Shown here piece by piece: positions 37,131-42,495 of a DNA stretch of 64,000 nucleotides; position 1 is the first letter of the stretch, and the number at the start of each line of letters is the position of its first letter. A program made the translations under genes and the position numbers. Under the pieces are notes generated by a model. That model saw only the letters and a program-made list of their open reading frames with translations. It was not told where the DNA came from and did not search any database. The DNA is from Gluconobacter oxydans (GTDB lineage Bacteria; Pseudomonadota; Alphaproteobacteria; Acetobacterales; Acetobacteraceae). The DNA lies in the NCBI RefSeq assembly GCF_006539685.1, contig NZ_BJNM01000002.1, positions 62,001 through 126,000 of the forward strand, read 5' to 3'.

Positions 37131-40385
<3,255 letters not shown>

Positions 40386-40388
40386 GGC

Positions 40389-41777
40389 TCAGGCTCCTGC
40401 GTTCGTGCTGTTGGCGGCGCGACGGTCCATGACCGCGACGAAACGCTCGAAAAGATAGAAACTGTCGGACGGGCCGGGGCTCGCCTCGGGGTGGTACTGG
40501 ACGGAGAAGGCGTCTTTCGTGGTCGACGCGATGCCTTCGTTGGAGCCGTCGAACAGGCTCACATGCGTCACCTTCACATCGGCAGGCAGCGACTTCTCGT
40601 CCACGGCGAAACCGTGGTTCTGGCTGGTGATTTCCACGCGGCCGGTCTCGACGTCCTTGACCGGCTGGTTGGCGCCGCGATGGCCGCGCTCCAGCTTGTA
40701 GGTCTTGCCGCCCAGTGCCTGTGCGAGAAGCTGGTGGCCGAGGCAGATGCCGAAGACGGGAACGTTTGCGTCCAGAACCTTGCGGATGGCGGGGACGGCA
40801 TAGGTGCCGGTCGCGGCCGGATCGCCGGGGCCGTTGGAGAGGAACACGCCTTCGGGCCTGAGTTCCAGAATTTCTTCGGCCGTGGCCGTGGCGGGCAGGA
40901 CGGTGACGTCACAGCCGGCGGTCACGAGGCAGCGCAGGATGTTGTCCTTGGCACCGTAATCCATGGCGACGACGCGGCGGCGGTTTTCGCGCACAGGCTT
41001 TGTGGAGTGCCACACGCCTTCGGTCCAGACCCGCTTGGGCCGGGTTACTTCCTTTGCGAGGTCCATACCTTCGAGGCCGGGCCACTGGCGGGCGCGGTTC
41101 AGCAGGCTGTCCGTGTCGATACGGCCGTTTTCTGGGAAAGCGAGGATGGCGGTCTGCGGGCCGTTGTCGCGCAGGGTGCGAGTGATGGCGCGGGTATCGA
41201 TGCCGCTGATGCCCGCACGGCCATGATCGCGGAGCCATGCGGCGAAGGGCTCGTGGGAGCGCCAGCTTGCCGGGGCGGTGATGTCTTCCTTCACGACGGC
41301 ACCGAGGGCGGCCATCTTCGGGGCCTCGTTGTCATCGGCGTTGGTGCCGACATTGCCGATATGCGGGAAGGTGAAGGTCACGATCTGTCCGGCGAAGGAC
41401 GGATCGGTCAGGGTTTCCTGATAGCCGGTCATGCCGGTGGAGAAGCAGAGTTCTCCGACGGCGCCTTCGGTATGGGCACCGAAGCCACGGCCCCACAGGA
41501 CCGTCCCATCGGCAAGGACAAGGGCGGCGTTGGCGCCGGGAGGGCAGGGATTGGACACGTCCGTCTCTCTTTCTTGTTCTTGCTGGGTTTCAGTCGTGGT
41601 GAGGTCTGCTGTCAGATCCTGCAGGGCGATTCCCGGCACGCGCAGCAGGGCCGGCCAGTGCTTGGTCGGGACCATGCGGGACTGGCGCCACTTGCGGACG
41701 GCTTCCAGTCCGACGCCGGCAAGAGCGGCGATTTCGTCCGCGCCTCCGGCTTTTTCGATGATTCTGTCGATGTCCAT
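40389..41777 (-). CDS. carA: Carbamoyl-phosphate synthase small subunit with N-terminal HTH extension
   Basis: Glutaminase subunit feeding ammonia to CarB. From the ATG at 41777 it has 462 residues; the ordinary CarA part begins near residue 74 at a GTG (41558) and is 389 residues, the family length. The class I amidotransferase site is PVFGICLGHQLLAQAL (nucleophile Cys), with the catalytic His and Glu in YHPEASPGP. The first 73 residues are a helix-turn-helix-like segment (GGADEIAALAGVGLEAVRKW) that CarA does not normally have. No stop separates them, so either one fusion protein or two initiation sites are possible. Both starts have weak ribosome-binding sites. Confidence 0.85.
   Translation of the reverse strand: MDIDRIIEKAGGADEIAALAGVGLEAVRKWRQSRMVPTKHWPALLRVPGIALQDLTADLTTTETQQEQERETDVSNPCPPGANAALVLADGTVLWGRGFGAHTEGAVGELCFSTGMTGYQETLTDPSFAGQIVTFTFPHIGNVGTNADDNEAPKMAALGAVVKEDITAPASWRSHEPFAAWLRDHGRAGISGIDTRAITRTLRDNGPQTAILAFPENGRIDTDSLLNRARQWPGLEGMDLAKEVTRPKRVWTEGVWHSTKPVRENRRRVVAMDYGAKDNILRCLVTAGCDVTVLPATATAEEILELRPEGVFLSNGPGDPAATGTYAVPAIRKVLDANVPVFGICLGHQLLAQALGGKTYKLERGHRGANQPVKDVETGRVEITSQNHGFAVDEKSLPADVKVTHVSLFDGSNEGIASTTKDAFSVQYHPEASPGPSDSFYLFERFVAVMDRRAANSTNAGA
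41559..41777 (-). other. HTH module in frame ahead of CarA
   Basis: 73 codons of ATG-initiated open frame without a stop before carA. The segment MDIDRIIEKAGGADEIAALA, then GVGLEAVRKWRQSRMVPTKH, has the length and spacing of a Cro/YdaS-type helix-turn-helix. A linker rich in Thr, Gln and Glu leads into CarA. I recall a small alphaproteobacterial domain called carph-isopro of similar appearance, named for its link to carbamoyl phosphate synthase; that is memory, not a search result. Role unproven. Confidence 0.6.
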
Positions 41778-41831
41778 GGTCGCCCCGTTGCTGGCTGCCG
41801 GATGTACTTCTGGGGGCTCTGAATAAGGGAT

Positions 41832-41918
41832 CGGAAACGGAATGGGAAGTTTTTTCCCACTGCCTGTTTTGCGTTTCGGAACGGGGTGGGAAGTTTTTTC
41901 CGAATGGCTTGTTTTGCG
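41832..41918. repeat. Two 42-bp imperfect direct repeats upstream of the HTH-carA frame
   Basis: Copies at 41832-41873 and 41877-41918 share TGGGAAGTTTTTTCC and TGTTTTGCG. In copy 1 the core TGGGAAGTTTTTTCCCA (41843-41859) is a palindrome with 6-bp arms; copy 2 (41887-41903) has one arm altered (TTCCGA). Cores are 44 bp apart, about four helical turns. They lie 55-141 bases before the carA start and 122-208 bases before yqeY. Confidence 0.72.
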
Positions 41919-42039
41919 GCCACAGGGGCTGCCGGATTGTTGCAAACCGGCTTTTGTGCGATTTTGCCGCCATTCAAGGAATGAGGGACGGCTCGCCGAG
42001 GGAGTTTCCTGCGGGCTGTCCGATGTAAGGAGAACGGCG

Positions 42040-42495
42040 ATGTCGCTTCGCAAGCAGATCATGGATGACCTCAAGACAGCCATGAAGGCCGGTCAGTCCG
42101 AGACGGTGGCCCAGATCCGCGGGATCACGGCCAAGATCAAGGATCTGGACGTTGCCGCCCGCGCCAAGAGTGCTGAGGTGACGGATACGGACATCATTTC
42201 CGCCCTGCGCTCCATGATCAAGTCCCGCACGGAATCCGCCACGATGTATCGTGAAGGTGGCCGTCCGGAGCTGGCGGAAAAGGAAGAGGGCGAGATCGCG
42301 ACGATCAAGTCCTACCTGCCGCCGGAGCTGGACGAAGCCACGCTGAAGGCCGGAATTGAAGACGCCGTGAAGAAGACGGAAGCGGCCGGCATGAAGGACA
42401 TGGGCAAGGTCATGGCCGCGCTGAAGGAGCGTTTTGGCGCGGATCTGGACCCGGCGAAGGCCAGTGCGCTGGTGAAGGCGCATCTTTCGGCCTGA
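42040..42495 (+). CDS. yqeY: GatB/YqeY domain protein
   Basis: 151 residues. It resembles the C-terminal tRNA-binding domain of GatB: MSLRKQIMDDLKTAMKAGQS, then the SYLPPELDEATLKAGIEDAV and MGKVMAALKERF motifs. In related bacteria it lies next to dnaG and rpoD; here it is separated by 10.7 kb. A role in tRNA quality or aminoacylation is suspected. AAGGAGA lies 7 bases before the ATG. Divergent from carA across a 262-base region. Confidence 0.9.
   Translation: MSLRKQIMDDLKTAMKAGQSETVAQIRGITAKIKDLDVAARAKSAEVTDTDIISALRSMIKSRTESATMYREGGRPELAEKEEGEIATIKSYLPPELDEATLKAGIEDAVKKTEAAGMKDMGKVMAALKERFGADLDPAKASALVKAHLSA

Follow-up and report, generated by a model that had tools for sequence, protein, structure and literature searches.

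A Cro-like head on the carbamoyl-phosphate synthase small subunit of Acetobacteraceae, with paired palindromes at its promoter: a candidate autorepressor

The stretch of DNA analyzed here, referred to as the window, comprises 64,000 nucleotides of Gluconobacter oxydans (contig NZ_BJNM01000002.1, positions 62,001 to 126,000), and its minus strand carries a gene for the small subunit of carbamoyl-phosphate synthase, carA, with an N-terminal extension. Translation of 41777-40389 gives 462 residues and a single stop at the end. The ATG at 41777 lies 219 nt 5′ of the usual CarA start, which in the window is a GTG (41558-41556), and residues 1-73 come before that GTG; a preliminary description of this DNA had drawn the open frame from the same ATG, and its coordinates were right. 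The mechanical open reading frame extends further upstream, as far as 42083, and since that stretch contains the candidate operators described below, ATG 41777 is the sensible start. Directly 3′ of carA lies carB (37131..40385, minus strand), recognized by its reading frame, its Pfam CPSase large-chain domains and an MGS-like domain; the two genes presumably form a single operon. The divergent neighbor on the plus strand (42040..42495) is yqeY, encoding a GatB/YqeY-like protein (Pfam YqeY). A 721-residue open frame at 39657-41822 on the plus strand, antisense to carA and the end of carB, showed no sign of being a gene and probably arises from the way codons are used in a GC-rich gene.

The protein encoded at 40389..41777, which we call HTH-CarA, has three parts: a helix-turn-helix head, a linker with predicted disorder, and CarA. 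The head (residues 1-56; 41610..41777, minus strand) is matched over residues 3-56 by the NCBIfam model NF046037 (carphisopro) with 62.2 bits when residues 1-73 are the query and 56.7 bits with the whole protein, against a curated cut-off of 38, and the match covers the model from position 1 to 54 of 54. The name carph-isopro, which the preliminary description had given, was thus borne out by the HMM search, and its observation that a predicted helix-turn-helix module precedes CarA in frame is confirmed. As to its wording "Cro/YdaS-type", the nearest solved fold is a Cro protein, and membership in Pfam YdaS_toxin was rejected at 26.6 bits, below the gathering cut-off of 30. The linker (residues 57-83; 41529..41609, minus strand) has pLDDT values below 50 over residues 57-75. 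From residue 84 to 451 the protein matches the CarA model TIGR01368 with 441.5 bits (cut-off 307.35), and C345, H429 and E431, which by analogy with E. coli CarA we take to be the catalytic Cys, His and Glu of the glutaminase, are invariant in 45 sequences; the fused protein presumably remains an active enzyme.

In a prediction of the whole protein the head was modeled with confidence (means of 82-94 for ten-residue blocks of pLDDT over residues 1-50) and the CarA part resembles the E. coli subunit 1cs0; residues 1-60 predicted alone gave a mean pLDDT of 91.9. The closest solved fold for the head is phage Cro 3bd1 (Z 8.4, rmsd 2.2, 59 residues), P22 and N15 Cro being among those that follow, and the best Foldseek E-value was 0.015. 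The solved folds nearest to the head are thus phage Cro proteins (of Xfaso 1, P22 and N15), but in HTH-CarA the domain is fused to a metabolic enzyme and the Pfam P22_Cro profile scores it at 13.5 bits, below the cut-off of 30.2. At Z 5-7.5 the structures also include the unrelated phosphonate enzymes MPnS, HEPD and HppE, whose HTH-like domain is not known to bind DNA, so that the fold match alone is no proof of DNA binding. A sequence search of solved structures with the head as query returned no match below E 0.13. Among phages, four from Caulobacter align with half of the head at E 4e-3 and 48.6% identity, and of their genes one is annotated as a transcriptional repressor and the others are unnamed; among plasmids the head found no match at E 0.01.

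The fusion is family-wide. A carphisopro match is present in 283 of 299 family genomes (278 above the cut-off) and in 100 of 102 genera, these being domain matches of which some lie on proteins other than CarA; the window's genome has one such domain. We read the gene context in 151 distinct genomes of the family from at least 63 genera, taken from the pattern hits and from the matches with the highest scores among those listed, a choice by which weaker heads are under-sampled, and because these genomes are related, the counts that follow are not independent events. CarA follows the head and linker in frame in 150 of the 151; at the exception, L175 (G088), the head frame does not run on into CarA past the linker, through either a frameshift or an assembly error. 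Stops or frameshifts in close relatives, named beforehand as the observation that would speak against the module, were absent from the window's genus: the 12 genomes read, one of them the window's own, all share the start, and in each the frame stays open through the linker, from MDID to CarA. The head is under purifying selection as judged by dN/dS, which is at most 0.09 in 10 of 11 within-genus pairs with the window, dS being saturated in the eleventh. At 8 of the first 31 loci an in-frame stop lies 21-30 nt before the domain match, and the frame at those loci can therefore begin only at the head.

Sixteen family genomes lack a domain match. Eleven of them gave no carA at E 1e-30 and are therefore uninformative on loss of the head, and in three (G026, G178 and G146) the carA pieces start at contig ends. 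The carA genes of the remaining two, G210 and G029, are headless, as is that of G116, where the domain is matched only by a separate protein of 82 residues encoded at another place. G029 and G116 belong to one genus and G210, whose genus mates carry the head, to another, which makes three headless carA genes in two genera.

Upstream of the fused genes we found two palindromes of 17 bp each, with the consensus TGGGAA-N5-TTCCCA. In the window the proximal candidate operator, TGGGAAGTTTTTTCCCA on the plus strand, lies at 41843..41859 (G000:C2:103843-103859) and the distal one, TGGGAAGTTTTTTCCGA on the plus strand, at 41887..41903, 44 bp from it. At least one exact core, GGAAN5TTCC, occurs in 146 of the 151 genomes and two occur in 91, compared with 2 exact cores in 143,669 nt of downstream control sequence; in the window's genus, 4 of the 10 loci read directly have only one site with an exact core. 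Defining a pair as two sites 30-60 bp apart, each with at least 7 of the 8 core bases, we found one upstream of carA in 143 of the 151 genomes, with a spacing of 38-40 bp in 102 of the 143; the controls gave 3 pairs in 3,020 base-shuffled upstream regions and none in 151 real downstream stretches. Each of the eight genomes without a pair retains one 8-of-8 core. Assignment of the operator to yqeY was rejected: the pair is kept in 20 of 23 genomes where the yqeY neighbor was not seen, which indicates that the paired sites go with carA and not with the divergent gene. A search of 41500-42100 for an RNA leader or riboswitch gave no Rfam match up to E 0.5.

Searched for genome-wide, and independently of the head, the exact double site occurred in 25 of 120 genomes, at one place in each (0 in the reversed control), and all 25 places precede HTH-CarA; judged by the 25 genomes that have this exact form, carA appears to be its only target. 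Exact single palindromes number 0-6 per genome in 99 of 100 genomes (reversed control 0-4). The hundredth, G072, has 13, including L294, L299 and L303, mostly identical TGGGAAACACCTTCCCA copies scattered over the genome, which look like a repeat family rather than operators. The window's genome has four other exact single sites, three of them inside genes with a Pfam family (CBS/CorC, PMT_2 and a nucleoside hydrolase) and the fourth inside a 200-residue frame without one. With all four inside frames, a wider regulon of exact sites in this genome was rejected; this applies to exact sites only, and there may be a regulon of weaker, mismatched sites. The carA operator itself also falls within mechanical open frames, so location inside a frame does not mark a site as non-regulatory; single sites inside frames prove little, and it is the pairing that singles out carA.

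The proximal palindrome holds a fixed place relative to the gene start and to promoter-like elements. In 101 of 142 genomes the ATG follows it by 11-15 nt, and of these 101, which we term leaderless-type promoters, 94 have TTG exactly 6 nt ahead of the palindrome (17 of 1,717 at 17 offsets further upstream) and 93 have A at the second position past it; over all 143 genomes with a pair, the box after the palindrome is TAT-like. The TTG before and the A or TAT-like box after imply that the palindrome fills the 17-bp spacer between -35 and -10, and the mRNA of these genomes would start at about the ATG. Shine-Dalgarno words before the head's start are scarce in this group (2 of 100), consistent with a leaderless mRNA, as against 21 of 34 in the leader-type genomes, a group that includes the window and close relatives. 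In the leader-type genomes the right half-site reads TTCCCA in 32 of 34, and 31 of 34 have TA exactly 17 nt downstream of it (no other offset exceeds 11 of 34), the spacing to be expected should the half-site itself serve as the -35 box. A -10 hexamer with at least 4 of 6 matches to TATAAT at 16-18 nt occurs in 12 of the 34 (8.0% in shuffles); the window's own -10-like hexamer, TATTCA (41820..41825, minus strand), is weak, with 3 of 6, and the TTCCCA half-site at 41848-41843, which would take the part of the -35 box, precedes it by 17 nt. One locus, L207 (G066), has an unusually long linker, and its palindromes precede the domain by about 130 and 75 nt, a layout unlike the two common promoter types.

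Promoter motifs measured in G. oxydans are lax (ttGnnn and nAtnnn, with Tatnnn in the most abundant transcripts), and the same work gives aGGAg at 3-14 nt before starts and 61 leaderless mRNAs (PMC5756330); neither carA nor carbamoyl appears in the main text of that paper or of PMC6191907. Taken over the sampled genomes, the proximal site is locked onto the core promoter across the family. Since the palindrome overlaps the promoter in both types, a protein bound there would block the polymerase, and repression is the likely sign of regulation.

Head and paired sites are, on this reading of the loci, jointly absent in two genera: the headless genomes G029 and G116 have no site with at least 7 of 8 core bases in 640 nt, and the headless G210 has two isolated 7-of-8 matches 271 bp apart, which are not a pair. 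In the class, carA was found in 59 of 76 genomes; 30 loci were fetched, of which 28 lie outside the family and 24 of these 28 were readable. Among the 24 there was no pair, one exact core (L261) and one 7-of-8 match in each of two others, and 19 CarA N-termini inspected by eye had no head. Within the predicted recognition helix (residues 24-33, LEAVRKWRQS; 41679..41708, minus strand), E25, A26, R28, K29, W30 and R31 are invariant in sets of 45 and 44 sequences. In genomes with CGGAA rather than GGGAA as the half-site, residues 34, 23, 32 and 21 tend to differ, and the top-ranked columns cluster at the recognition helix; this residue-operator covariation is only a trend, and cannot reach significance because there are only five supported independent changes. 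A second head-like protein was rejected as the regulator: the 16 loci with extra domain matches score at most 26.3 bits with a custom profile and have no exact core within 250 nt upstream, and by eye they resemble Cro/YdaS-type or transposase HTHs.

Besides a fusion, the preliminary description had raised the possibility of two nested products from one frame. An in-frame ATG is present in 113 of 150 linkers and is accompanied by a Shine-Dalgarno word (AGGA, GGAG or GAGG ending 3-10 nt before it) in 83 of the 113, compared with 30 of 323 ATGs in the body of CarA and 555 of 5,650 linkers after codon shuffling; one ATG with the word was enough for a positive score, which gives linkers with two ATGs a slight advantage over the control. 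The headless carA of G210 has MPDIQQPDGATAALVL at the place equivalent to the internal start, and the linker ATG aligns with the G210 CarA start. These linker ATGs, with their Shine-Dalgarno words and their match to the G210 start, indicate that headless CarA is probably also made in many species. We consider it rather probable that the two products exist by design, a long HTH-CarA, often from a leaderless mRNA, acting as regulator and a short CarA from the internal Shine-Dalgarno ATG supplying the bulk of the enzyme, and both the aGGAg spacing and the 61 leaderless mRNAs of G. oxydans (PMC5756330) fit such an arrangement. Several observations weigh against it: 20 of 150 linkers have no possible start codon, so that the fusion alone suffices in those species; among the 37 linkers that lack an ATG, only 5 offer a GTG or TTG preceded by a Shine-Dalgarno word; and the internal start may be no more than what remains of the place where ancestral CarA began. 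In the window itself the possible second start is the GTG at 41556..41558 (minus strand), which lacks a strict Shine-Dalgarno word, although a start codon, GTG (8) or ATG (4), is kept at this place in 12 of 12 members of the genus. The nested-product proposal accordingly gains from the 83 of 150 linkers with a supported ATG and loses from the start-free linkers and from the window's own GTG; it adds to autorepression and does not replace it, and the two possibilities raised at the outset are compatible.

We think it likely, from the comparative evidence above, that HTH-CarA joins a working enzyme to a repressor dedicated to the enzyme's own gene. The Cro-like head on the small subunit would bind the two palindromes over the carAB promoter, the proximal one filling the -35/-10 spacer in most genomes read and placing its right half at the -35 position in the window's group, and the bound head would keep RNA polymerase out; the enzyme would in this way gauge its own amount and lower its own transcription, and in the many species with an internal start only part of the CarA pool would bear the regulator. 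The two heads needed for a palindrome may be brought together through the CarAB complex. Sites 38-39 bp apart are out of helical phase, which makes simple cooperation on one face of the DNA not obvious. The earlier suggestion of a moonlighting fusion, perhaps acting on its own promoter, thereby finds sequence-level support in the family-wide paired palindromes, in the exact double form at carA alone, and in the absence of the pair where the head is missing.

An alternative is that the palindromes serve some other regulator and that the head of CarA has a different role; palindromic operators are indeed mostly targets of free-standing regulators. We regard a separate factor as improbable: wherever the exact double site occurs, in 25 genomes, it lies at carA, and genomes of two genera lack both the head and the paired sites. 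For a regulator that acts on carA alone and is absent in just those genomes without the head, the simplest candidate is the head itself. Still less probable is a purely structural head, serving for example CarAB assembly or allostery without binding DNA. Enzymes such as the phosphonate enzymes above do contain HTH-like domains, but here the invariant positions of the head are concentrated in the helix presumed to read the DNA, the linker varies and is predicted to lack order, and the paired promoter sites would be left without an explanation. That the head is an annotation artefact, with translation from the GTG only, has a barely appreciable probability: high-GC frames often run open, yet the low dN/dS of the head in the ten pairs computed, its conservation across the family and the stops just before the domain at eight loci all speak against this, and a frame open by chance was rejected on the conservation together with the dN/dS.

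If HTH-CarA is an autorepressor, the signal to which it responds may lie in the holoenzyme. For E. coli CPSase, the form described with UMP is a heterodimer and that with ornithine a tetramer of heterodimers, and oligomerization as such is described as without effect on the regulation of its activity (PMC6245113); this would leave the property free for another use, and lends no support to a sensing role. Tentatively, and with a probability well below even, CarAB could act as the sensor: if it oligomerizes as in E. coli, the tetramer would present four heads for four half-sites, ornithine, UMP and enzyme amount would set the occupancy of the promoter, and headless CarA would dilute the heads and tune the response. 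The window's CarB has the oligomerization and MGS-like domains that such a role would need.

As a family, NF046037 carph-isopro is known by name, and a literature search for that name found no paper, nor was there a title on HTH-CarA among the matches listed in our literature searches, both covering mostly journals outside subscription. Outside the Acetobacteraceae the domain occurs on other proteins, the two tested with Pfam being mitofilin (Mic60)-like; in 23 of 28 fetched outside-family loci read with a custom profile no CarA start motif followed the domain, by a motif that had missed 4 of 25 true cases, and the 60 printed residues likewise gave none. Such carph-isopro domains on non-CarA proteins are seen at L074:1441-2808 (plus strand), L082:145-1866 (minus strand) and similar loci among L065-L092, and a Cro-like head on a Mic60-like protein is odd.

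Enzymes that also regulate transcription of their own pathway are well established: PutA, BirA and NadR are autoregulatory or trigger enzymes that combine both functions in one protein, and to our knowledge none of them is a carbamoyl-phosphate synthase. HTH-CarA resembles them in combining an enzyme with a predicted regulator, and like PutA it has a domain of DNA-binding type fused to a catalytic one and conserved operator-like sites at its own promoter; it differs in that its target appears, from the distribution of the sites, to be its own gene alone. Solved E. coli CarA chains have 375-380 residues, and so have no such head. In E. coli, carAB is a control point for arginine and pyrimidines at which the trigger enzymes PepA and PyrH take part, and its tandem promoters are served by the separate regulators ArgR, PurR, RutR, IHF, PepA and PyrH (PMC6245113); the HTH-CarA system would be alike in the role of a trigger enzyme and unlike in its use of a fused rather than a separate regulator. 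The principle of an enzyme as regulator is thus known; this enzyme, the exact operator and the internal start set the present case apart as a variant of it.

For the carph-isopro domain, known so far by name alone, these observations provide a likely function and an exact DNA site to test. If the proposal is true, HTH-CarA would be a clear case of a core enzyme turned repressor of its own gene by means of a Cro-like head, possibly with a direct link from oligomeric state to promoter occupancy. It would also explain how the entry step to arginine and pyrimidines is controlled in a whole bacterial family, one that includes the makers of vinegar and cellulose.
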